Source: an uncultured bacterium
GTDB taxonomy: Bacteria; Desulfobacterota; Binatia; HRBIN30; CADEER01
Direction of reading: 5' to 3'
Length of the DNA stretch: 44,031 nucleotides
Assembly (NCBI GenBank): GCA_902826395.1
Contig: CADEER010000026.1
Location: forward strand, 1 to 44,031
Below are positions 6,780 through 37,883 of this stretch, piece after piece. The notes under the pieces are model-generated. The model was not told the DNA's origin. It worked only from the letters and a program-made list of their open reading frames with translations, and made no database searches. The translations under genes were made by a program, and so were the position numbers. Each line of letters opens with the position of its first letter. Within the stretch, counting starts at the first letter, position 1.

Positions 6780-7940
6780 TCAGAATGGAAACTCAAGCTG
6801 CTCGCCGGGAATTGTGATCACGTCGCTCCCGGTGCGCGTACCCTCGTGATGGACGTTGAAGGACGCAGTCCCGGTCCGTTCCGCATCATGCGCTTCGGTC
6901 GCGACCATCATTACGCCCGACCTGGTTCCGGTTGAGGTTCGAATCCGAGTCATCGCGTACGTCGATTGAATCGACGCCAGCGCCGGATTGATCTCCTCGA
7001 GCAGCAAGTCTGCCCAACAAGTGACCTGCGTGGAAGATGAAAGAGGCGACTCAAACTCATCCCAGGTCAGAAGCTGCAGAGTAATCGTCTCCGGAATCTG
7101 CGACTCAAAATTCTGAGTACAAGGAATGAATGTCACACTCGTATCGATCGAGGCGCCCTCTCCGAGGACGGGGTCCTCGGTTCCTGACACGAAGTGGTTC
7201 AGGAACCAGAACTCAGGGCATCCGTTGTACTCAGGATCCGGACAATCTTCGCTGGGACCGCCGAGGCACAGCGTAGCGTCGCCGTTATTGAACTCGTTTC
7301 CGCCGATTCCGACCGCGTTGTATTTAGCGACATCGAAGTCTTCGGAGCAGGTCTCTACGGAACACGCCTCGCCGCCGATCGTGCACGTGTCGGTCATTGG
7401 GTTACAGACGTCGTACGTGACGATCGTCGCTTCGCCCTTTAGATGATTTCCGCTGTGCGGAGCGCCGGTCTGATCGGTCTCGATGCACTTCAGCTCGCCG
7501 ACGAAGTCGTCAACGACGGCCGGCACAGCGCCCGGGTCGATACCCGAGTTGGGGCAGTCGTAATTACCTTCGACAAAATCACACGGATCGTCCGGCGCGC
7601 CCACGTCCGTTCGTCCGGTAGACACCCGCCAGTATGTCGGCTGTTGCCGTGTCAACGCGATGTCGAAATCAATCTCCTGCCAAAGCGGCGGATTATCCGG
7701 CCCAGGCGGGAGGTCCCGGCTCGCGAGTGCCGCATTCACGTAAAAGCAGTGCGCGTACACCACGGTGTTTCCGGTGTTTGTGATCTGAATCAGCGTGTCT
7801 CTCGTTCCGTTGGCGATGACCTTCGGGAAGACCAATATTGAAGCGGTCCTGTCCGTCACAATGTCGGCCGAAGCGCCGCTGACCAGTACGCCCACGAGCG
7901 CAACCGCTATGAGCCCCACTCGCCCTCGATGCCTACGCAT
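6780..7940 (-). CDS. Secreted paralogue A2 of a four-member family, function unknown
   Basis: 386 residues. Start chosen at 7940 because AAAGGAGGAGG lies a few bases upstream; a 12-codon in-frame extension to 7976 is unlikely. Signal peptide at about 1-25 (VALVGVLVSGASA). The body shares FPKVIANGTRDTLIQITNTG, VVYAHCFYVN, LWQEIDFDIALTRQQPTYW, GELKCIETDQTGAP, NHLKGEATIV, YNAVGIGGNEF, TLCLGGPSEDCP, NHFVSGTEDP and the C-terminal SDVITIP with A1 (9713-10840), so it is a type A member. Nine or more cysteines in the mature part suggest disulfides in an exported, oxidising location. First gene of the second A-B unit, under the promoter at 8023-8051. Confidence 0.8.
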   Translation of the reverse strand: MRRHRGRVGLIAVALVGVLVSGASADIVTDRTASILVFPKVIANGTRDTLIQITNTGNTVVYAHCFYVNAALASRDLPPGPDNPPLWQEIDFDIALTRQQPTYWRVSTGRTDVGAPDDPCDFVEGNYDCPNSGIDPGAVPAVVDDFVGELKCIETDQTGAPHSGNHLKGEATIVTYDVCNPMTDTCTIGGEACSVETCSEDFDVAKYNAVGIGGNEFNNGDATLCLGGPSEDCPDPEYNGCPEFWFLNHFVSGTEDPVLGEGASIDTSVTFIPCTQNFESQIPETITLQLLTWDEFESPLSSSTQVTCWADLLLEEINPALASIQSTYAMTRIRTSTGTRSGVMMVATEAHDAERTGTASFNVHHEGTRTGSDVITIPGEQLEFPF

Positions 7941-7943
7941 TTG

Positions 7944-7954
7944 CCTCCTCCTTT
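7944..7954 (-). promoter_or_regulatory. Strong ribosome-binding site fixing the A2 start
   Basis: On the minus strand AAAGGAGGAGG ends three bases before the ATG at 7940. It decides against the upstream in-frame start at 7976. Confidence 0.8.
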
Positions 7955-8022
7955 CAATACCTACCGCCAACACCAACGCGCCGTTGAAGCCGTGGCGGAG
8001 TTCTCCCTACACAAGTGCCGGC

Positions 8023-8051
8023 CTTATATCGACGCACCCGAAAGATGTCAA
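8023..8051 (-). promoter_or_regulatory. Near-consensus sigma70 promoter of the A2-B2 operon
   Basis: On the minus strand a perfect TTGACA (8051-8046), a 17-base spacer and TATAAG (8028-8023, five of six). The predicted transcript starts near 8016 and has a leader of about 75 bases before the ATG at 7940. The -10 region and the following CGGCACT resemble the promoter at 10973-11002. Confidence 0.8.
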
Positions 8052-8090
8052 GTCAAAACGGGCCTGTTTGTGAGGACGGCTCTCCAAAGT

Positions 8091-9716
8091 TTACTGAAGC
8101 GGTAAATAGATGAAGTCGCTCTGCGGCCGGCGACCCTGAAAATGCACGTTTCTCGCCGCAGAACTTACAAGATTCTCGGTGCTTATAAAGCTGCAGCGCG
8201 GGAACTCCCAGATCGGCCCCGCACACCTGAACTCCTCGGCGATCGCTACTAGCGCATTGCCACGCGCCTTGCCATTTGGTCCCTCACCGACCACGCCACG
8301 CATTCGGGTCTGGCCCGTCAGGGTACCGCCGACGCCAACGCTGAAGATCGACCGCTCAGGGTCGCTGCTACTGGCATCGAGCCCCCACAACGGCGTCTCC
8401 TTGAAGCAGGTGACCTCGCTGCTGGTCGACAACCGCTGCTCGAACTCATTGAACACCAGGAACTGCACGACGGTCTTCGAGTTGTCGATGTTGTCGAAGT
8501 CGATTCCCTCCTCGAAGTCCTGGGTGCAGGGTACCATGGTGATCTCCGTGACCACCCGAACGTCGAGGGTCGTCGGGCTACAGAAGCCGTTTGAACCGAA
8601 GGGTCCGCAGTCCTCTCCCGACAAGGTGCAATCTTGCGTCGTCGCGTCACATTCGTTGACGCAGTCGCCATCATCGCCGCACGGCGTTCCGGTGACCGTA
8701 CATGCCCCCGAGCCGCCGTCGCAGGTATTGTCGATGCAGTCGCTGTCGTTGCCACAGGCGCCGCCGCTGATTGCGCAGACCCCCTCGGGGAGACAGCGGT
8801 TGAGCGCCTGCGGATCGACGGCCCCGTCGAAGTAGTGGTCGAGGATAAGAATGTTCGGACAGCCCTCGTACTCGGCACACGACGTGGGGTTGGTAGCCCG
8901 ACACGCAGCGTCGGCGGGATTCGATCCCGGGTTGGCCCCCGTGGGGCCGCCCATCACTAGCGTCAAGTTGCGATTGTTGGCTCCTTGAATCGCCGGAAAG
9001 CCAATCGGATTGTAGCCCGCGACATCGATGAAATCGCCACCGCGACCAATGTAGCCAATCGTCGCGTGCCCGATCAGATCGTTGCGATCCGTTGGCGCAC
9101 CCGTCTCATCGACGGCGATGCACTTCAACTCGCCAATGAAGGGATCCTCCGGCGAGGGAGGAACCAAGCTGCCTTGATTGGTCTGGCCGGGATTACCTCC
9201 GGGAACTTCGCCATTGAGCGGAAAACAAGGATCGAACGTACAGCGATCACCGGCCCCGCAGTCCTGATTGTCTTCGCACACGGTCGTACCGTCACCGCTG
9301 CAGCGCCCGAGGCGATTGCAGCCCACCCCGGCACCTTGCGACACGAGCCACCCGGTCGGCTGCTCGCGGGTAAGCCGAAAGCGGAAATCGGTTTGTTGCC
9401 ACTGCGGCGGACAGTTCCCCGTGCAGGTTCGCTCAGGAAAGCACGCGCCCGTCCCGTTGTCACAACGCGGCGTCGCATTGACATAAAAGCACAATACGTT
9501 CAGCGGTTGGGATGAGACGTTGCTGATCGTGACGAAAGTGTCGACGCGCCCCTCAGCACCCTCGGTAACGACTAGGATCTTGGGGAACACCAGCATCGCC
9601 GCCGGGTGGTCCGACGTCGTCTCTGCCGACGCGGTTGCCAATGCGGCGAGTAGGGCAGCGAGTAGAAACGCCATCGCTTGGCCGACTCCACGTACCATAT
9701 GCCTCGATCTACTCAT
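8091..9716 (-). CDS. Secreted paralogue B1 with inserted Cys-rich repeats, function unknown
   Basis: 541 residues, the longest of the four paralogues. Signal peptide at about 1-31 (FLLAALLAALATASA). It carries the family landmarks AAMLVFPKIL, DTFVTISNVS, NVLCFYVN, WQQTDFRFRLTREQPTGWL, GELKCIAVDETGAP, NDLIGHATI, VPCTQDF, QFLVFNEFEQRLSTS, DPERSIFSVGVGGTLTGQ and C-terminal SDFIYLP. The extra length comes from Cys-rich insertions of the form C-x-D-(D/N)-x-D-C in the first half and at about residues 315-385; such modules recur in exported proteins of Myxococcota-like and Binatota-like bacteria. Its ATG at 9716 overlaps the A1 stop by four bases (ATGA), indicating translational coupling. A second in-frame ATG at 9698 is possible. 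Function unknown. Confidence 0.8.
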   Translation of the reverse strand: MSRSRHMVRGVGQAMAFLLAALLAALATASAETTSDHPAAMLVFPKILVVTEGAEGRVDTFVTISNVSSQPLNVLCFYVNATPRCDNGTGACFPERTCTGNCPPQWQQTDFRFRLTREQPTGWLVSQGAGVGCNRLGRCSGDGTTVCEDNQDCGAGDRCTFDPCFPLNGEVPGGNPGQTNQGSLVPPSPEDPFIGELKCIAVDETGAPTDRNDLIGHATIGYIGRGGDFIDVAGYNPIGFPAIQGANNRNLTLVMGGPTGANPGSNPADAACRATNPTSCAEYEGCPNILILDHYFDGAVDPQALNRCLPEGVCAISGGACGNDSDCIDNTCDGGSGACTVTGTPCGDDGDCVNECDATTQDCTLSGEDCGPFGSNGFCSPTTLDVRVVTEITMVPCTQDFEEGIDFDNIDNSKTVVQFLVFNEFEQRLSTSSEVTCFKETPLWGLDASSSDPERSIFSVGVGGTLTGQTRMRGVVGEGPNGKARGNALVAIAEEFRCAGPIWEFPRCSFISTENLVSSAARNVHFQGRRPQSDFIYLPLQ

Positions 9717-28028: not shown

Positions 28029-28967
28029 TCACGCGCTCGCGGCGCGCTGCAGCACTCGCCAGTAACTGCGTTCGACGCAGCCACCCTCGAGCACCCCGCG
28101 CTCGGCGAGGAGTTTGTGCAGGCGCGGCAGGTTGTAGTGCGGCACCGTCATCAAGAGATGGTGTTCGAGGTGGTAGTTGAGGCGGTTGGGAGCCACCAAC
28201 AGACGTTCCCACCAGCGTGCCACCACGGTGCGCGTATTGCGCAGGGGGTCGTTCGGTTCCAACGCCGCCGGAGTCATCGCGTGCTCGGCGATGGCACGTA
28301 CGCGCGTGACCAGGGTGTATGTGGTGAACCACGCCCCGATCCACAACAGATACAGCGCCGGATGCCCCACCAGCGTGAAGATCGCCAGCAGCACCGCGTT
28401 GCTGGCCGCGACGCCAATCGCCGCCTTGCGGGCCGATGCGTCGACGCCGATTCGGCCGAAGGTGCGGCGCCATGACGCCTTGGCGAACTTCCATCCCGTC
28501 TGACCGCTCAGATCGCGCCACACCTTGCGGCGCAGACTGCCGCGGCTGATCGGGAACGGTGTAACCAACCCCAGATCCGGGTCGCCGGGACCACCGGTCT
28601 TGCCGTGATGCTCGAGGTGGTACGGACGATAGCGGTCCGTGTCGCTCCACACCGGATACGCCGCCAGCCAGTTGCCCGCCCAATCGTTCAATCGCCGGCT
28701 GCGGAACAAAGCCCGGTGCGCCGCGTCGTGCATGATCGCCGCACACGCGAGCTGTCTGCCCCCAATCACGAAGAGCGCAACGAGCACGGTAAGTGGGTTT
28801 GGCCAGCGCGCGACCGCCGCGGCAGTGCCAAAGACGATCGCCCAGTTGAGGGCAATCGACCCCCACGACCGAAGGTCGTGCGGCTGCAGCAAGTCGCGGA
28901 TCTCTTCGCGGCTCACCGCCTGCCTCCAGTTCACCGTCTGAGCTCCCCGCTCGTCGCTCGTCTCCAT
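28029..28967 (-). CDS. Membrane fatty-acid desaturase/hydroxylase family protein
   Basis: Non-haem di-iron membrane enzyme that desaturates or hydroxylates a lipid. 312 residues from the ATG at 28967. Three histidine boxes are visible: HDAAH (80-84), HLEHH (117-121) and HLEHH (266-270), with a further histidine in RAIAEHAM (about 229). Hydrophobic segments lie near 38-52, 58-78, 186-200 and 204-222. The substrate cannot be told from the sequence; fatty acyl chains, sphingolipids or carotenoids are possible. The start is set by GGGAG eight bases upstream; an earlier TTG or ATG at 28985/28973 is less likely. It follows the PaaX-like regulator by 27 bases on the same strand. Confidence 0.88.
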   Translation of the reverse strand: METSDERGAQTVNWRQAVSREEIRDLLQPHDLRSWGSIALNWAIVFGTAAAVARWPNPLTVLVALFVIGGRQLACAAIMHDAAHRALFRSRRLNDWAGNWLAAYPVWSDTDRYRPYHLEHHGKTGGPGDPDLGLVTPFPISRGSLRRKVWRDLSGQTGWKFAKASWRRTFGRIGVDASARKAAIGVAASNAVLLAIFTLVGHPALYLLWIGAWFTTYTLVTRVRAIAEHAMTPAALEPNDPLRNTRTVVARWWERLLVAPNRLNYHLEHHLLMTVPHYNLPRLHKLLAERGVLEGGCVERSYWRVLQRAASA

Positions 28968-28975
28968 GGTCATGA

Positions 28976-28980
28976 CTCCC
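28976..28980 (-). promoter_or_regulatory. Ribosome-binding site fixing the desaturase start
   Basis: GGGAG on the minus strand lies eight bases before the ATG at 28967. It would be too close to the alternative ATG at 28973. Confidence 0.5.
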
Positions 28981-28994
28981 GGCAAAAGACGCGA

Positions 28995-29959: not shown

Positions 29960-31434
29960 CTGTCGTTCTGGTCGAAAACCGGGGCGAGCACCGGTGCAAG
30001 GCCCCTGCGAGGCCAGGTGAAGCGAAAGCACGCACCCCCGCCGGGACTGTCTTCCACCCAGATGCGCCCGCGATAGCGATCGATGATCTTCTTCACCGCG
30101 GCAAGGCCCAGGCCTTCGCCGACCACTCCCGCGCCGGACTCCAATCGCTTGAACGGCCGGAAGATCTTCTCGCGGCAATCGACCGGGATGCCGTCGCCAC
30201 TGTCGCTCACGGAAAAAACGTAGCCGCCGTCGGCGTCCTCGCAGGAGACGGAGATCGCGCGCGGCGAGCGCTCCGGCATATACTTGATCGCGTTCTCGAT
30301 CAGATTGCCGAACAACTGCCCGATCCGCAGTCGCTCTCCGACGATGTCGGGCAGCTCGCCAATATCGATCGAGATGTCGCGGTCGCGGATCTGATGCTCC
30401 ATCGATGAGACGATCTCTTCGAGCAGCGCGGGAAGCTGGACGGTCACCTCGGGTGCCGGCCGACTGTCGATGCGCGAGAGCTCGAGGAGCCCGTCGATCA
30501 GAGCGTTCATCTTCGCCGTTCCGCTGCCCATGAAGTGCAGGGACTCGTCGACCTCGGCATGCGCCTCAGCCCACGCTGCACGCAGCTCCTCGACGGGACC
30601 GTCCGCAGTCGCTTCAATCTCACCGACGCGGCGGTCGAAGTCTTCCAGGGACTCGCGCAGCACGGCGCCAAAGCCATCGATGTTGATCAGAGGTGCACGC
30701 AGGTCGTGGGAGACGATGTAAGTGAAGTCGCGCAACTCGGCGGTGACGTCAGCGAGAGAACGCGCCTGAGCATCGGCCCGGTCGCGCGCCTCTCGCGCCT
30801 CCTGCTCGTTGCGCAGCGCCGTGGTCCGCGACGCGCGCAGTTGCTCGTTGAACATGCGAAAAGCGGAGATCGGCGTGCGGAAGCCGAAGATCACGGCCAC
30901 GGCAACCGCGCCGTACAGGATGTAGCTCGGCAGTACGATTGGATCGACCAGTCGGAATTCGTGCAGCCCAGCCGATACCAGGACGACGCCGATCGTCGTG
31001 ACGGCGACGCGTCGCTGAGCCCTGTCGCCCAGGACCATCGCGCCCGCGCTCATGCCGACGAACGCAGTCTGCAGCCCGAGAATTGCGCCCCGATCGATGA
31101 AGAGGAAGAACAGCACCGTCGCGGTCAGGTTCGCGAACAGTTGGGCATTGAAAGCCCGGCGCAGATCGCCGCGCCGGCACGCGCGAACAGCCACACCCCA
31201 CAGGATCGCCATCATGAATGTGCAAATGGCGGTGCCGAGCAGCGAGGTGCGAATCGCCGCATAGCGCGGCAGGAAAGCCACTGAGAGAAGGATCACGCCG
31301 CCGATCGCACAGCTCACAAGTCCGGGGACACTGGTGCGCTCGATGAAGCGCAACTGTTCGTGCCGCACCTGGTCCTTCCCCGACACGACCGGCTGGCTTG
31401 GCCCACCGGCAGTCTGCTGGGCGATCGAAGACAT
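29947..31434 (-). CDS. Membrane-bound sensor histidine kinase
   Basis: About 495 residues. The N-terminal half has five or six membrane segments (from about residue 40 to 195) forming an unrecognised sensor region with no periplasmic domain. A coiled coil (about 200-245, rich in R, E and A) joins it to the HisKA domain with the phosphoacceptor box FTYIVSHDLRAPLINIDGFG. The HATPase domain has the N box NLIENAIKY, the G1 box VSDSGDGIP, the F box FRPFKRL and the G2 box GEGLGLAAVKKI. This resembles the light-sensor and phytochrome-type kinase subfamily, without a photosensory domain. No response regulator is adjacent. The start is ATG 31434; a GTG at 31446 is possible. Confidence 0.88.
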   Translation of the reverse strand: MSSIAQQTAGGPSQPVVSGKDQVRHEQLRFIERTSVPGLVSCAIGGVILLSVAFLPRYAAIRTSLLGTAICTFMMAILWGVAVRACRRGDLRRAFNAQLFANLTATVLFFLFIDRGAILGLQTAFVGMSAGAMVLGDRAQRRVAVTTIGVVLVSAGLHEFRLVDPIVLPSYILYGAVAVAVIFGFRTPISAFRMFNEQLRASRTTALRNEQEAREARDRADAQARSLADVTAELRDFTYIVSHDLRAPLINIDGFGAVLRESLEDFDRRVGEIEATADGPVEELRAAWAEAHAEVDESLHFMGSGTAKMNALIDGLLELSRIDSRPAPEVTVQLPALLEEIVSSMEHQIRDRDISIDIGELPDIVGERLRIGQLFGNLIENAIKYMPERSPRAISVSCEDADGGYVFSVSDSGDGIPVDCREKIFRPFKRLESGAGVVGEGLGLAAVKKIIDRYRGRIWVEDSPGGGACFRFTWPRRGLAPVLAPVFDQNDSAAA

Positions 31435-31692
31435 TGGCTTCAGCACGGAAGGCTAGCGCGATTTTTGGGCTTGTCGATGACGCTTTTCCGAGCTCCGAAA
31501 GCGAGCGGGACCGCGGCCCCGCCAGCGCGCGAACCGCGGTCGACGTGACGGAGCGCGCCGCGTGGGCATCCCGCCGGGGATCGGTGCTGTCGGGCACCGA
31601 TAAAGAGCCCGGGAGCCCTGCATTTTCTCCTTGCGCGCCTTGACACCATGTGGCACATCGGTCGCGCCCAAAAGGGGATGTGCAGGGATGCG

Positions 31693-31700
31693 AAAAGGAG
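31693..31700 (+). promoter_or_regulatory. Ribosome-binding site fixing the SET-gene start
   Basis: AAAAGGAG nine bases before the ATG at 31710; it rules out the in-frame upstream ATG at 31650. Confidence 0.65.
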
Positions 31701-31709
31701 CACCACGAG

Positions 31710-32294
31710 ATGCCCAGTTCGTTTCTGTCGAGCTCGCTGATCGGCATGCGGGTGTCCGACAAGGGTGGTCATGCCGTATTTGCCCGGGAGGATATCGCGC
31801 CGGGTAGCATCCTGGCCGTTTGGGGCGGATCAATCCTCACGGCCCGCGAGCTCGCTCTTCGCCCCGCCAGCTTGCGGCGCCTCACTCTGCAGGTCGACGA
31901 AGACGCCTATCTGGTGAGCGACGTCGAGGGCCCGGCAGATTGGGTGAACCACAGCTGCGCCCCAAATGCCGGCCTGCGCGGCCAGATTACCCTCGTCGCT
32001 ATGCGACCGATTCGCCAGGCGGAGGAAGTCTGCTTCGACTACGCGATGAGCGATGGATCGAACTACGACACCTTTGACTGCAACTGCGGCGCCGCGAGTT
32101 GTCGCGGTCGCGTGACCGGCGACGACTGGATGCGCAGCGACCTCATCACTCGTTACGGAGAGTACTTTTCGCCCTTCCTGCAGGAGCGCATTCGACGCCT
32201 CGCGGATCGGACCGAACGGGAGCAGTCTGCCCATCCGGCGCGGCACCTTGCGATCGAAGGACTCGGGCGGGTGGACAACCGCGTCGCCCGATGA
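31710..32294 (+). CDS. SET-domain lysine methyltransferase-like protein
   Basis: 194 residues. SAM-dependent SET fold: GMRVSDKGGHAVFAREDIAPG at the N-terminus, the pseudoknot motif VNHSCAPNAGL, and E-E-V-C-F-D-Y-A with the catalytic tyrosine. A post-SET cysteine cluster follows (CNCGAASCRG), which with the NHSC cysteine could bind zinc. Bacterial SET proteins usually methylate protein lysines; the target here is unknown. Start at 31710 is fixed by AAAAGGAG. The next gene begins 174 bases downstream on the same strand, so co-regulation with the ligase genes is possible but not proven. A palindrome ATGTGGCACAT (31648-31658) lies upstream. Confidence 0.85.
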   Translation: MPSSFLSSSLIGMRVSDKGGHAVFAREDIAPGSILAVWGGSILTARELALRPASLRRLTLQVDEDAYLVSDVEGPADWVNHSCAPNAGLRGQITLVAMRPIRQAEEVCFDYAMSDGSNYDTFDCNCGAASCRGRVTGDDWMRSDLITRYGEYFSPFLQERIRRLADRTEREQSAHPARHLAIEGLGRVDNRVAR

Positions 32295-32468
32295 TCCGCC
32301 GACGCGTCGGTGCCTCTGACCAATCCCCCGGTAGTTGGCGCGGTCGCGTTTCCGACCTCGATGCTCGCGAAGAGAGACGACGGCCGACGACCGGCGTGAA
32401 CCAGATATCCTTCTCGCCTTCGGCACCCCTCCTGTCCGGCCGCCTTGGCGAAGCGTAGAACCGCGACC

Positions 32469-33935
32469 ATGGCGCGTCACCTGCTGGTCGTCGACCGACC
32501 CCACAAATGGGATCTGGCGCTGCCCGGCTTCGACGTCGTCGCCGCCCGCGACTATCTGACCGAGCCCGAATACGCGGCGCTGCGCCGCGCCAAGGTCTAC
32601 AACCTGTGCCGCACCTACGGCTATCAGACCATCGGCTACTACGTATCGCTTCTCGCGGCAGCACGCGGACACCGGCCGCTGCCGTCGGTCACGACCATCC
32701 AGGACCTGCGATCCTCCGCGCTGCTCCGCATCGTCTCGGAGGATCTGCAGGACGACGTTCAGCGCGCCCTCGGGCCGTTGAAGACCGACGAGATGGTGAT
32801 CAGCATCTACTTCGGGCGCAACGTGGCCAAGCGCTACGACCGGCTCTGCCAGGCTCTGTTCAATCATTTCCCGGCACCGTTTCTGCGCGCCGAATTCAGT
32901 CGCGCCAACGGCCGCTGGCGGCTCGACAGCCTGCGGCCGATCGCGTCTTCCGACATTCCCGACAGCCACCGGGATTTCGTCACCCAGCGGGCTCGCCGCT
33001 ACTTCGAGCGCCCGCACATCGCCCGGCGAGAGGAGTTCCGCTACGATCTGGCCATCCTCGTCAACCCGGACGAAGTCGACGCGCCGTCCGATGACATCGC
33101 CATTCGGCGCTTCTGCAAGGCGGCCGAGCGCCACGGCATGCGCCCGGACATCATCGGGCGAGAAGATCTCGCTCGGGTCGCGGAGTACGATGCGCTGTTC
33201 CTGCGCGAAACGACCTACGTGAATCACCACACCTACCGCTTCGCCCGCCAGGCGGAGATGGAAGGACTGGTGGTCATCGACGATCCGACCTCGATCGTGC
33301 GCTGCACCAACAAGGTGTACCTCGCCGAGCTCTTCGACCGGCATGACATCCCCTGCCCGCGCACCATGGTCGTGCACCGCGACAACGCCGATCAGGTCGG
33401 AGCCACGCTGGGTTTCCCGTGCGTGCTCAAGAGACCGGACAGCTCCTTTTCTCAGGGCGTCGTCAAGGCGAACGACGAAGCCGAGCTGGCGATACAGCTC
33501 GACGCGTTCTTCGAGAAGTCCGAGCTCGTCGTCGCTCAAGAGTTCACGCCGTCGCCGTTCGACTGGCGCGTCGGAGTCATCGACGGACGGCCCTTGTATG
33601 CGTGCAGGTACTACATGGCCAGCGGCCACTGGCAGATCTACAAGCCGCCGGGCTCCACCGGCCGGCGCTGGGGAAAGTCGGACACCATCGCCATCGAGGA
33701 TGCACCAGCCCGCATGGTAGAGACGGCGGTACGGGCCTGCGGGTTGATCGGCAACGGGCTGTACGGTGTCGACATCAAACCGGTCGGCAAGCGCTTCTTG
33801 GTGATGGAGGTGAACGACAACCCCAGCATCGAGGCCGGCTGCGAAGATCGGATTCTCAAGGAAGAGCTCTACGACATCATCATGCGAACCATCCTCGCAC
33901 GCCTCGAAAGGCGCGGCGGGCGCGCCGGCACCTGA
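32469..33935 (+). CDS. RimK-like ATP-grasp ligase with RLAN-type N-terminal domain
   Basis: 488 residues. The N-terminal part (about 1-165: VVDRPHKWDL, ARDYL, RAKVYNLCRTYGYQTIGYYVSLL) matches my memory of the RimK-like ATP-grasp N-terminal (RLAN) domain. The C-terminal half is a RimK-type ATP-grasp domain: NKVYLAELFDRHDIPCPRTM, the ATP-binding lysine K321 in VLKRPDSSFSQGV, GVIDGRPLYACRYYM, GVDIK at 433-437 and the metal-binding MEVNDNPSIEAG at 446-457. Such enzymes activate a carboxylate as acyl phosphate and ligate it to an amine. The ATG at 32469 is preferred over a TTG at 32445. It is 10 bases before a GCS2 family gene, so the two are cotranscribed. Substrates unknown. Confidence 0.88.
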   Translation: MARHLLVVDRPHKWDLALPGFDVVAARDYLTEPEYAALRRAKVYNLCRTYGYQTIGYYVSLLAAARGHRPLPSVTTIQDLRSSALLRIVSEDLQDDVQRALGPLKTDEMVISIYFGRNVAKRYDRLCQALFNHFPAPFLRAEFSRANGRWRLDSLRPIASSDIPDSHRDFVTQRARRYFERPHIARREEFRYDLAILVNPDEVDAPSDDIAIRRFCKAAERHGMRPDIIGREDLARVAEYDALFLRETTYVNHHTYRFARQAEMEGLVVIDDPTSIVRCTNKVYLAELFDRHDIPCPRTMVVHRDNADQVGATLGFPCVLKRPDSSFSQGVVKANDEAELAIQLDAFFEKSELVVAQEFTPSPFDWRVGVIDGRPLYACRYYMASGHWQIYKPPGSTGRRWGKSDTIAIEDAPARMVETAVRACGLIGNGLYGVDIKPVGKRFLVMEVNDNPSIEAGCEDRILKEELYDIIMRTILARLERRGGRAGT

Positions 33936-33945
33936 TCGATTTTCG

Positions 33946-35181
33946 ATGACGCAGCCCGTGCTCGGTCTGTTCGAAGCCGTCGGTATCGAGATCGAATACA
34001 TGATCGTCGACAGCCAGACTCTGTCGGTGCGACCCATCGCCGACGAGCTGCTGCGCCAGGTGGGTGGCGGATACGATCTCGAAGTCGAGCTCGGCCCGGT
34101 GGCGTGGTCGAACGAGCTCGCGCTGCACGTCATCGAGATGAAGACCAACGGCCCGGCGGCCAACCTGACCGGCCTCGGCGATCTGTTCCACCAGCACGCG
34201 CTGCGCATCGAAAGCCTGTTGCAGCCGCTGGACGCCCGACTCATGCCGTCCGCGATGCATCCATGGATGGACCCGGACCACGAGCTGCGCCTCTGGCCGC
34301 ATGAGAACAACGCCATCTACTCGACGTTCGATCGCATCTTCGATTGCCGCGGCCACGGCTGGGCGAACCTGCAGAGCATGCACATCAACCTGCCATTTCG
34401 CGGCGACGCGGAGTTCGGACGCCTGCATGCGGCGATTCGCGTCCTCCTGCCGATTCTTCCCGCGCTCGCCGCCAGCTCGCCCGTAGTCGACGGCGTCCCG
34501 GCGACAACTCTCGACACGCGCATGGCGGTGTACGCGACCAACGCCCGTCGCGTGCCGTCGGTTAGCGGCATGGTGATCCCCGAGAGGGCCTACACTCGCG
34601 CCGACTACGAAAAGCGGATTCTCGGCCGCATCTACGACGACCTCGCTCCACTCGACCCGGACGGCGTACTGCGGCACGAGTGGGTGAACGCGCGCGGCTG
34701 CATCGCTCGCTTCGATCGCGACGCGATCGAGATTCGCGTCATCGACGTGCAAGAGTACCCCGCCGCCGACATCGCGATCGCCACCGCTGCCATCGCGGCG
34801 CTGCGCCGGCTGGTCGACGAGCCGGCGTGCGCGGCTTGGGACGAAGCGGTGCTCGCGGAGATTCTGGCCCGCACTGTCGCCGATGCGGACGACGCCGTCA
34901 TCGACGACCGCGACTATCTGAAGCTGCTTGGCGTTCCAGGGCGCGCACCGATCAGCGCCCGTGAGCTGTGGCTCTACGTCATCGACGAGCTGGTCGGCGA
35001 CGAGCCCGGCGCCGCGGCCGGGCAAGCTTTCTACGACACGTTCCGCCGACACGGCTGTCTCGCCCGCCGCATCCGCACGGATGTGGGGCCGAGCCCGAGC
35101 CGCCAACGCCTTCACGATTCATATCTGCGGGTATGCGATTCGTTGCGTGAAGGGCGCCCCTTCATTCCCGATGCGGCCTGA
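33946..35181 (+). CDS. GCS2-type carboxylate-amine ligase (glutamate-cysteine ligase-like)
   Basis: 411 residues. Belongs to the glutamine-synthetase-like fold family that includes GCS2 and YbdK, which form amide bonds with ATP. The N-terminal GIEIEYMIVD (13-22) contains the metal-binding glutamates; EMKTNGPAANL (64-74), HPWMDPDHE, GWANLQSMHINLPF (138-151) and IEIRVIDVQEYP are other family landmarks. It is shorter than GshA and closer to the YbdK-like group. No ribosome-binding site is evident, so translation may be coupled to the upstream ligase (10-base gap). The stop overlaps the start of the next gene by 11 bases. Substrates are unknown; glutathione synthesis is not supported by neighbours such as gshB. 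Confidence 0.85.
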   Translation: MTQPVLGLFEAVGIEIEYMIVDSQTLSVRPIADELLRQVGGGYDLEVELGPVAWSNELALHVIEMKTNGPAANLTGLGDLFHQHALRIESLLQPLDARLMPSAMHPWMDPDHELRLWPHENNAIYSTFDRIFDCRGHGWANLQSMHINLPFRGDAEFGRLHAAIRVLLPILPALAASSPVVDGVPATTLDTRMAVYATNARRVPSVSGMVIPERAYTRADYEKRILGRIYDDLAPLDPDGVLRHEWVNARGCIARFDRDAIEIRVIDVQEYPAADIAIATAAIAALRRLVDEPACAAWDEAVLAEILARTVADADDAVIDDRDYLKLLGVPGRAPISARELWLYVIDELVGDEPGAAAGQAFYDTFRRHGCLARRIRTDVGPSPSRQRLHDSYLRVCDSLREGRPFIPDAA

Positions 35182-35875
35182 GTCGCTAGTTTTCTCCTGC
35201 GAGCACGCCACCAATCGCATCCCTGCCCCGTACCGCCGACTGTTTCGCGGCGCCCGTGAAGAGCTGCGCAGCCACCGCGGTTGGGACCGCGGCGCATTGC
35301 GCGTCGCCGCCGCGCTCGCGAAACACTTCCGCGCCCCACTCTTTGCCGGCGAGGCGTCGCGCCTGCTGATCGATCTCAACCGCTCGCTGCACCATCCGCG
35401 CGTTTTCTCGGAGCGCACGCGAGGCTTGCCGGCGATCGAACGAATGCGTCTCGTCGATCGCCACTACGCCCCTTACCGCGCCGCGGTCGAAGCCTCGCTC
35501 CGCAACGCCCTCGCCGATGGAGGGCGAGTCGTTCACGTTTCGGTGCACAGCTTCACGCCGATCTGGAAAGGCTCGCCGCGGACAGCGGAGATCGGCCTGC
35601 TATACGATCCCCGCAGGCCGTTCGAGCGCCGTATAGCCGCGACCTGGAAGAGCGCGATGCTGGACATCGCTCCGCAACTGCGAGTCCGCCGCAATTATCC
35701 GTACCGCGGCACCAGCGACGGGTTCAGCGTCGCACTGCGCCAAACCGTCCGCTCGCCGCGCTACGGCTGCATCGAGCTCGAGATCAACCAAGCCCTGCTG
35801 CGCAACGCATCGGCGGCGCGTCTGCAGCAATGGCTCGGCAAGTCGCTCCACCGAGCGCTCGAGGCGCTGCGATAG
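35171..35875 (+). CDS. N-formylglutamate amidohydrolase-like hydrolase
   Basis: 234 residues from the ATG at 35171, which overlaps the ligase stop by 11 bases. Landmarks of the N-formylglutamate amidohydrolase (FGase) family are FSCEHATNRIP near the N-terminus, SRLLIDLNRSLHHP, VHVSVHSFTP and IELEINQALL; the EH and VHS motifs are probable zinc or catalytic elements. The family cleaves N-acyl glutamate bonds in histidine degradation, but no hut genes are present. In this operon it more likely hydrolyses or edits an amide product of the two ligases upstream. The open frame continues upstream in the ligase reading region, but that part is not conserved. Confidence 0.83.
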   Translation: MRPESLVFSCEHATNRIPAPYRRLFRGAREELRSHRGWDRGALRVAAALAKHFRAPLFAGEASRLLIDLNRSLHHPRVFSERTRGLPAIERMRLVDRHYAPYRAAVEASLRNALADGGRVVHVSVHSFTPIWKGSPRTAEIGLLYDPRRPFERRIAATWKSAMLDIAPQLRVRRNYPYRGTSDGFSVALRQTVRSPRYGCIELEINQALLRNASAARLQQWLGKSLHRALEALR

Positions 35876-35969
35876 AGCGAACGACCACCCGCAGCCTCGG
35901 CCTTGCAGGAAACAGTACCGGTCAGTAGCGTCGATCAGCCGCAGGAATATCCCACGGGAGGGGATTCTA

Positions 35970-37883
35970 ATGAAGGTGACGTCACCGGCATCCACACTGT
36001 TGCTGCTCGCCGCTGCGATCTCGTTCTCCACGGAGGCCCGAGCGGGTACCTGCGAGGAGGAGTTCGACAGCACCTACGAGCTCATCCAGAAGGCGATCTT
36101 CGAGAACAAGGGATGCACGGCCGACGCATGCCACGGAAGCTCGGTGCAGGGCGGGCTGGATTTGCGCGCCGGCGCCTCCTACGACGCCCTGGTCGACGCC
36201 GAAGCCGAGTCGGTCCCGGACTTCATGCGCGTCGTGCCAGGACAGAAGGAGCAGAGCCTGCTCTGGTTCAATCTCGCCGCCGCGACGATCCCGAGCCAGT
36301 GGGAAGCGCCGCTGCGGCCGATGCCTATCGGCGTCGAGCCGCTGACCCTCGACGAGCTCGAAGCCATGCGCGTGTGGATCGAATCCGGAGCGCCGCGCGA
36401 TGGCGTGCTACCAGTGACCGGCGAGCTTCTCGATGCCTGCCTGCCGCCGGCGAAGCCGATCGAAATCGCACCGCTCGATCCGCCGCCAGCCGGTGAAGGC
36501 GTGCAGCTCCGGATGCCGCGTTGGGAGCTTCCCGCGCAGGGCGAGGACGAAGTTTGCTTCGTCAGTTACTACGATTTGTCCGATCAGATTCCCCAAAAAT
36601 ACCGCAGCGCCGATGGCACGACCTTCCGCTACAACCGCATCCAGATCCGCCAAGACCCACTCAGTCATCACTTGATCGTCAACCGCTACGGCGGCAGCAC
36701 CGGCGGCCTGGCCAGCGACTTCCGCTGCCGCGGCGGCGATCGAAACGGTCAGACCTGCGAACCGACCGACCTCGACGCGTGCGGCACGGGCGTGTGTGGC
36801 AGCCGAGTCGTCAGCAGCTTTGCATGCATCGAGTTCGACGGCGGCATCGGCGCCTTCGGCGGCGGCTTCACCGGCACACAGGAGACCGCCACCGAGCAGC
36901 AGTTGCTGCCCGGCGTCTACGACCAACTACCCGTCAAGGGCTGGATTCTCTGGAACTCGCACGCCTTCAACCTCACCGACGAGAGCGGAAAGATCGAGGC
37001 GTGGTTGAACTTCGATTTCGCCGAGCCGGAGGAGCAAGTCTTCCCCGGACGCGACATCTTCACCGCGTCGTCGATCTTCGACATGACCGTGCCGCCCTTC
37101 GAGGCTCGCGAGGTCTGCAGCATCTACTCCCTGCCGCCACGCGCCAAGCTCTTCGAGTTGAGCTCCCACACCCACCAGCGCGGCATCCGGTTCCAGACCT
37201 TCCTCGGCGCCTTCCAATGCGACGGCGGACCCAACAACGGCCGCGCCTGCTCGCCGTACGGGCCGGACGAAGACTTCGACACTCCGGACTTGTGCGCCGG
37301 CGCGAGGTGCGTCTCGCGTGTGCCTCCGGAAGCCGGCGACTGCAACGGCGATTTGCGGGTGACGATCGACGAGATCATCCGCGCCGTGAACATCTCGCTC
37401 GGGCGGCAACCACAGTCGAGCTGCCCGCACGCCAATCCCGACGGCGACGCGTCGGTCGAAATCTCGGAGATCATCCTCGCCGTCAAATCCAGCGTGAACG
37501 GCGGCTTCCGCAATCCCGACGACAGCCTGCTCTACAAGAGTCTGGTCTACAACGATCCGGCGATCATGCATTTCGACCCGCCGCTCACCTTCGCCGGCAA
37601 CGGATCACCGTCGGCGCTGCGCAGCCTCACCTACTGCTCTCTCTACGACAACGGCTTCAGCGATCCGGACGGCGTCAAGACCAACACGCGCTCGCCGAAC
37701 TCCTGCCTCGCCACGAACTGTTCGCAGGGACGCATCGGTCAATCGTGCCGGGCGTCCAACCACGCCGCATGTGACACCAGCCCCGGCGCCGGCGACGGGC
37801 TGTGCGACGCCTGCACTCTAAACGGAGGTGCGACCACGGAGGACGAGATGTTCATCCTCCTCGGGTCGTACTACGTGGACTGA
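35970..37883 (+). CDS. Secreted cytochrome-c-like/PHM-type copper monooxygenase fusion
   Basis: 637 residues. Signal peptide 1-25 (LLLLAAAISFSTEARA). An N-terminal domain (about 28-140) has CTADACHG with C49-x4-C54-H55, an atypical c-type haem motif, then GGLDLRAGASYDALV and a possible axial Met118 in PLRPMPIG. The remainder fits the two-lobed copper type II monooxygenase fold of PHM/DBM. Ligand candidates are H233-H234 in LSHHLIV and H331 in WNSHAFNL for the first copper, H400 and H402 in SSHTHQRG and M627 in DEMFILLGSYY for the second. Two dockerin-like segments (DCNGDLRVTIDEIIRAVNI at 458-476 and PDGDASVEISEIILAV at 490-505) interrupt the second lobe. Cys-rich insertions are present. GGGAGGGG precedes the ATG. 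The substrate is unknown. Confidence 0.78.
   Translation: MKVTSPASTLLLLAAAISFSTEARAGTCEEEFDSTYELIQKAIFENKGCTADACHGSSVQGGLDLRAGASYDALVDAEAESVPDFMRVVPGQKEQSLLWFNLAAATIPSQWEAPLRPMPIGVEPLTLDELEAMRVWIESGAPRDGVLPVTGELLDACLPPAKPIEIAPLDPPPAGEGVQLRMPRWELPAQGEDEVCFVSYYDLSDQIPQKYRSADGTTFRYNRIQIRQDPLSHHLIVNRYGGSTGGLASDFRCRGGDRNGQTCEPTDLDACGTGVCGSRVVSSFACIEFDGGIGAFGGGFTGTQETATEQQLLPGVYDQLPVKGWILWNSHAFNLTDESGKIEAWLNFDFAEPEEQVFPGRDIFTASSIFDMTVPPFEAREVCSIYSLPPRAKLFELSSHTHQRGIRFQTFLGAFQCDGGPNNGRACSPYGPDEDFDTPDLCAGARCVSRVPPEAGDCNGDLRVTIDEIIRAVNISLGRQPQSSCPHANPDGDASVEISEIILAVKSSVNGGFRNPDDSLLYKSLVYNDPAIMHFDPPLTFAGNGSPSALRSLTYCSLYDNGFSDPDGVKTNTRSPNSCLATNCSQGRIGQSCRASNHAACDTSPGAGDGLCDACTLNGGATTEDEMFILLGSYYVD

Follow-up and report, generated by a model that had tools for sequence, protein, structure and literature searches.

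An RLAN-RimK ATP-grasp ligase, a GCS2-type ligase and an FGase-like amidohydrolase form a conserved bacterial gene unit, usually with a C39-like peptidase

Results

Genes at the Locus

The locus studied lies in a 44,031-nucleotide stretch of a contig from an uncultured bacterium of the Binatia, and this whole stretch is referred to here as the window. Four genes follow one another on the same strand, encoding a SET-domain methyltransferase, an ATP-grasp ligase, a GCS2-type carboxylate-amine ligase and an FGase-like amidohydrolase (Table 1). All four reading frames were open and scored above the Pfam curated cut-offs. As read from the sequence, 174 bases separated the stop codon of the SET gene from the ATG of the ATP-grasp gene and 10 bases separated the latter from the GCS2 gene, while the ATG of the FGase gene lay within the end of the GCS2 gene, giving an overlap of 11 bases. 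The coordinates, gene labels and spacings of the original prediction agreed with both the sequence and the Pfam matches. No promoter was detected in a scan of positions 31300-36100, and terminator-like sites appeared there only at chance level. A defence system was rejected, as none of the four proteins (SET, ATP-grasp, GCS2, FGase) had a PADLOC match, and a phage origin was likewise rejected, the only PHROG match being a weak one of the RimK type.

Table 1. Position and supporting matches of the features described (window coordinates unless another contig is given).
Feature	Coordinates	Strand	Match or property
SET-domain methyltransferase	31710-32294	+	Pfam SET PF00856, 41.2 bits, E 2.4e-10
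RLAN + RimK-like ATP-grasp ligase, 488 aa	32469-33935	+	RLAN PF14401, E 2.8e-49; RimK PF08443, E 1e-8
GCS2-type carboxylate-amine ligase, 411 aa	33946-35181	+	Pfam GCS2 PF04107, 83.3 bits, E 2.5e-23
FGase-like amidohydrolase, 234 aa (start ATG at 35171)	35171-35875	+	Pfam FGase PF05013, E 1.4e-27
C39-like peptidase orthologue	Source genome (G000), contig C81, 21413-22099 (locus L053, 8914-9600)		Match of 329.9 bits, E 1.8e-98
Antisense open frame, 828 codons	31830-34316	-	Opposite the SET, ATP-grasp and GCS2 genes
637-aa protein	35970-37883	+	No Pfam or NCBIfam match
Fatty-acid-desaturase-like protein	28029-28985	-	Best NCBIfam GntB arginine hydroxylase, 109 bits (cut-off 380)

The long open frame on the opposite strand most likely arises from high G+C codon usage, as a shadow of the conserved genes, since antisense frames opposite RLAN also grouped together in other loci. 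Two further genes of the window were also noted. The 637-aa protein begins like a signal peptide and carries a CxxxxCH motif, together with repeats that resemble the calcium loops of dockerins. The fatty-acid-desaturase-like protein, whose gene adjoins that of a PaaX-like regulator and lies near a heme oxygenase gene, had as its best NCBIfam match the GntB arginine hydroxylase of guanitoxin synthesis, with a score far below the cut-off.

A Conserved Unit in Several Phyla

The original prediction had proposed an amide-making and amide-cutting set that included the SET protein, and a search of gene neighbourhoods to check it. In the first relatives examined, the gene order RLAN, GCS2, FGase recurred in Bacteroidota, Solidesulfovibrio (Thermodesulfobacteriota), Noviherbaspirillum, Legionellaceae and the phylum of the window itself; RLAN and GCS2 also occurred in Nitrospinota, as well as on a Leptospiraceae contig ending inside the FGase gene. 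The unit spans at least five phyla (Bacteroidota, Nitrospinota, Spirochaetota, Thermodesulfobacteriota and Pseudomonadota). In the Legionella adelaidensis record, where the last three genes are annotated as a RimK family protein, a glutamate-cysteine ligase family protein and an N-formylglutamate amidohydrolase, the overlap is 8 bases between the first two genes and 4 bases between the second and the third.

To remove the bias of querying with the window's own protein, the RLAN domain alone was searched against two other phyla (about 400 genomes each), to which the Legionellaceae and Marinilabilia loci belong. This survey added 100 further loci, and all 133 RLAN loci were classified. RLAN genes were present in 14/297, 72/398 and 44/395 genomes of the three sampled phyla. 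In 53 of the 133 loci, a GCS2 gene lay directly after RLAN in the same orientation, and none of the 75 loci of the GNAT type had one, which argues for a conserved unit beyond chance. An FGase gene came next in 39 of these 53 GCS2-type loci and was missing in 14; as some of the FGase matches are partial, broken or truncated copies (L005, L012 and L044) are included in the 39. The order C39-RLAN-GCS2-FGase was fixed, with median gaps of 14, 23 and 5 bases between successive genes. These results indicated that the genes for the ATP-grasp, GCS2 and FGase enzymes make up one conserved unit, usually accompanied by a C39-like peptidase gene, and the part of the original prediction that joined the three enzymes was thereby borne out. 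At locus L044 (genome G277), the RLAN gene (about 7184-8661) was split by a frame break and the FGase gene was broken too, which reflects either a decaying cassette or assembly errors.

The 75 loci of the GNAT type carried a GNAT partner fused to RLAN or adjoining it, and in 45 of them a GNAT was fused to a DUF3335 (C39-like) domain. Neither GCS2 nor FGase was found in any of the 75. The remaining RLAN loci were two with C39 and RLAN cut off by a contig end and three with neither partner. The GNAT-DUF3335 loci thus share the RLAN-RimK family with the cassette, and often a C39-like domain, but they have GNAT in place of GCS2, lack FGase and occupy another part of the RLAN tree. In this tree (131 proteins), the GCS2 label required 2 changes, compared with 41 when labels were shuffled, a contrast that was obtained by a quick method and is inflated by near-relatives. 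The RLAN protein of the window was sister to that of the genus relative G002 (99), inside a 32-row group consisting entirely of GCS2-type members (99). GNAT and GCS2 partners are therefore mutually exclusive, and their distribution tracks the RLAN tree.

No fifth partner or precursor (ORFs of at least 50 aa) recurred across phyla within 6 kb of the cassette; extra matches there were confined to close relatives, apart from histidine kinases scattered in position and strand. Since only four families recurred across phyla within this distance, no dedicated protein substrate or carrier appears to be encoded with the cassette.

The C39-Like Peptidase

The usual first gene of the cassette encodes a C39-like cysteine peptidase of about 240 aa (PF13529 and PF03412) and lies directly upstream of RLAN in 46 of the 53 GCS2-type loci. 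The four residues expected of a papain-like active site, Q13, C19, H175 and D193, were invariant in 18 C39-like sequences, and the relatives of this peptidase include ComA/PCAT. In the window, no C39 gene was found beside RLAN. The gene lies outside the window, and for this reason it had escaped the original prediction: the sole C39 match in the source assembly was on contig C81 (Table 1), with its papain-like residues intact and its stop codon formed by the last bases of the contig. The end of C81 showed no overlap with the window, and no second RLAN or GCS2 gene was found in the assembly, a draft of 423 contigs. Given the position of this copy at a contig end and the lack of a second RLAN or GCS2, either the gene is truly detached, or C81 runs into a cassette copy missing from the draft, or C81 is a stray contig. 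In the C39 tree, the C81 copy fell in a large group that mirrors the RLAN group of the window, its exact position being without firm support. Comparing the tetranucleotide composition of C81 and the window gave too much noise to be informative, the window's own pieces scoring no better than other genomes.

The peptidase gene was also not beside RLAN in six other GCS2 loci, one of which is truncated where its record begins; hence, it is not obligatory. Furthermore, RLAN, GCS2 and FGase were present without any genome-wide C39 match in G002 and in three Bacteroidota genomes, so the cassette can persist without C39. An FGase was likewise missing genome-wide in five tested genomes of the GCS2 type. 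As 14 of the 53 GCS2-type loci lacked FGase and 7 lacked C39, neither hydrolase is indispensable; the absence of both was seen in none of the 53, about 2 such loci being expected by chance from separate losses.

Ligases and Amidohydrolase

The ATP-grasp protein scored 167 bits against RLAN and 35.5 bits against RimK, both above the Pfam cut-offs, and was classified as an RLAN-RimK ligase. Its scores against the curated RimK families were below their cut-offs (TIGR00768, 75.7 vs 143.4 bits; PRK10446, 39.5 vs 331 bits). When predicted folds were compared, the nearest structures were ArgX, LysX and RimK (Z 25-26), a result that concerns the ATP-grasp half, as the matches barely cover the RLAN domain itself (residues 1-190). 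Residues K320, R366, D434, K436, E446, N448 and N450 (numbered as in P0002, without the start Met) were invariant in 15 relatives.

The predicted fold of the GCS2 protein (mean pLDDT 87) matched YbdK best (Z 36.0, 2.8 A over 348 residues), followed by the plant glutamate-cysteine ligase at Z 31.6, whereas the Pup ligase/depupylase PafA/Dop was much farther away (Z about 18). E15, E17, E57, E64, N148, E262 and R264 were invariant in 15 relatives. In sequence, the protein remained below the NCBIfam cut-offs for glutamate-cysteine ligase/YbdK, with 38.1 vs 176.4 bits for TIGR02050 and 28.5 against 249 bits for TIGR02048.

With 97.7 bits against a Pfam cut-off of 28.9, the third enzyme was assigned a predicted HutG-type FGase domain. 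Its closest solved relative was Atu2144 (2odf, profile E 1.2e-37), and the residues E20, H21, H44, D48, H131 and H135 (numbered as in P0004, which begins 9 residues ahead of the Met) were invariant in 14 relatives; the active-site residues of the cassette enzymes are thus intact. A second, more ordinary FGase, common to the whole genus, is encoded separately on contig C18 of the source genome, and the cassette FGase therefore represents a distinct subfamily.

The SET Neighbour

The SET gene of the window stands where the C39 gene usually stands. Among the 133 RLAN loci, it adjoined RLAN in the window only, and none of the 132 other loci had it. Any SET gene at all was found in just 6 of the 29 cassette or RLAN genomes tested (3/15 in the window's own phylum and 3/14 elsewhere), and in the genus relative G002 it lay on a different contig from the cassette. 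Hence, of the partners expected by the original prediction, GCS2 and FGase did recur next to RLAN but SET did not, and SET was rejected as a cassette member on its neighbourhoods. Because it occupies the place of C39 here and in no other sampled locus, the SET gene is probably a local neighbour and not part of the system.

The window SET protein matched the solved structure of BurB (9l4t, E 4.6e-7) about as well as it matched eukaryotic histone methyltransferases; the substrates of some SET enzymes may be small molecules. On two Leptospira plasmids, the SET relatives fell under genes annotated as S-adenosylmethionine decarboxylase.

Discussion

Proposed Function

The interpretation that we favour, although tentatively, is that the cassette constitutes a pathway complete in itself, whose product would be a small peptide or amide of the gamma-glutamyl type that it both makes and trims or recycles. 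The GCS2 enzyme would activate a side-chain carboxylate with ATP, most likely the gamma-carboxylate of glutamate, and join it to an amine, and the ATP-grasp enzyme would add another amino acid to a carboxylate. Together, they would build a short gamma-glutamyl-type peptide or amide, comparable to the assembly of glutathione by GshA and GshB. The C39-like and FGase-like enzymes would cut the product or its intermediates, for trimming, editing or recycling. In the source genome, the peptidase gene would be detached and the SET gene would precede the cassette by happenstance. The replacement of GCS2 by GNAT in the sister family suggests a shared role in capping an amino end, with an acetyl group in the case of GNAT and a gamma-glutamyl group in that of GCS2. 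As the GCS2 protein scored far below curated glutamate-cysteine ligases, its use of glutamate is something that we only infer.

Glutathione synthesis (GshA/GshB; GCS2 enzymes of the EgtA and YbdK type) is similar in that a GCS-fold enzyme and an ATP-grasp enzyme acting in series would give a tripeptide. Nevertheless, the ATP-grasp enzyme of the cassette is RimK-like and not GshB, two hydrolases are attached, and the GCS2 protein falls well short of the curated scores of GshA, EgtA and YbdK type enzymes.

Small Molecule or Protein Tag

Because the unit is accompanied by no substrate gene within 6 kb (ORFs of at least 50 aa) and its GCS2 protein folds most like small-molecule ligases, we lean, by a modest margin, towards a small molecule and away from a protein tag. 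Against this counts the fact that the C39 and RimK families act also on proteins and peptides. The best of the alternatives, which we regard as rather unlikely, is a reversible protein or peptide tag, to which the ATP-grasp enzyme (like RimK on ribosomal protein S6) and the GCS2 enzyme would add amino acids that the C39-like and FGase-like enzymes would remove. The closeness of the ATP-grasp domain to RimK, the peptidase character of the C39 relatives and the side-by-side encoding of ligases and hydrolases all fit such a tag, and there is a precedent in Pseudomonas, where the ligase RimK and the protease RimB write and erase polyglutamate on RpsF (PMC12239564). However, no conserved target or tag gene was found within 6 kb of the cassette, and the FGase family is known for N-acyl amino acids. 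The GCS2 fold also lies nearer to small-molecule ligases than to PafA/Dop; the latter have the same broad glutamine-synthetase-like fold but are more distant than YbdK and GCL, and no Pup-like neighbouring ORF of 50 aa or more recurs.

The RimABK/RloABC systems of Pseudomonas likewise pair an ATP-grasp enzyme of the RimK kind with a hydrolase of its own (PMC12239564), but this hydrolase is a retropepsin-like protease in place of C39 and FGase, and GCS2 is lacking. The osmolyte dipeptide NAGGN is made by an operon of the GNAT/ATP-grasp type with a peptidase (asnO-ngg-peptidase), again a small set of ligase(s), N-capping enzyme and peptidase (PMC8070244). It differs in its asparagine-synthase-like AsnO and its GNAT type Ngg, neither of which is present in the cassette of the window. 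Taken together, the NAGGN operon and the RimK/RimB pair indicate that both options, small peptide and protein tag, exist in nature.

Other Alternatives

The handling of amines or amino acids would be a different use of the same enzymes: GCS2 would attach a gamma-glutamyl protecting group to an amine, which would then be processed and freed by the hydrolases, as in the gamma-glutamyl putrescine route. GCS2 and FGase are suited to adding and removing an N-acyl group, and most loci have two hydrolases. Nonetheless, this seems improbable, because no oxidase, dehydrogenase or transporter recurs beside the cassette and the ATP-grasp enzyme, its constant member, is unneeded for such a route.

C39 peptidases classically cut double-glycine leaders, and ComA/PCAT, as described above, are relatives of the cassette peptidase. 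A RiPP pathway would accordingly have C39 remove a leader, with the ATP-grasp enzyme making graspetide-like amide cross-links or extending the peptide end, and graspetides are known products of ATP-grasp enzymes (PMC8939145). We consider it very unlikely, since neither a precursor-sized gene (50 aa or more) nor an exporter recurs across loci and the ATP-grasp domain is RimK/LysX-like. The least credible proposal, and one that we judge highly unlikely, is the four-gene system of the original prediction with a SET methyltransferase acting on the product or on the tagged protein, which has on its side the strand and nearby upstream position of the SET gene in the usual place of C39, and a possible small-molecule type of SET enzyme (the BurB match), but against it the absence of SET from every other RLAN locus sampled and its rarity in the genomes tested.

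Relation to Predicted Amidoligase Systems

Iyer, Abhiman, Burroughs and Aravind in 2009 (Mol BioSyst 5:1636) reportedly described operons with ATP-grasp enzymes, GCS2-like COOH-NH2 ligases, GNATs and papain-like peptidases. Two later papers cite this survey, one for operons in which peptide ligases of the ATP-grasp, COOH-NH2 ligase and GNAT kinds occur together (PMC4431377), the other for GNAT fusions with papain-like peptidases (PMC10318531). To judge from these citations, the cassette matches the type of predicted amidoligase system that the survey covered, the detached C39 gene and the adjacent SET gene being special to the locus of the window. The literature search, outside which the survey of Iyer et al. 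lay, returned no paper on the cassette or its function.

The unit spans several phyla without a function assigned in the literature found, and the mutually exclusive GNAT and GCS2 partners offer a concrete, testable clue to its chemistry. The finding that C39 travels with the unit and SET does not directs experiments to the right four genes. In a broader sense, it is possible, though on the doubtful side, that the RLAN-RimK ligases represent a widespread uncharacterised system with interchangeable amino-capping modules, GNAT and GCS2, and a C39-like editing hydrolase, the GCS2 form of which would produce either a glutathione-like gamma-glutamyl peptide not described before or a novel reversible tag on proteins.
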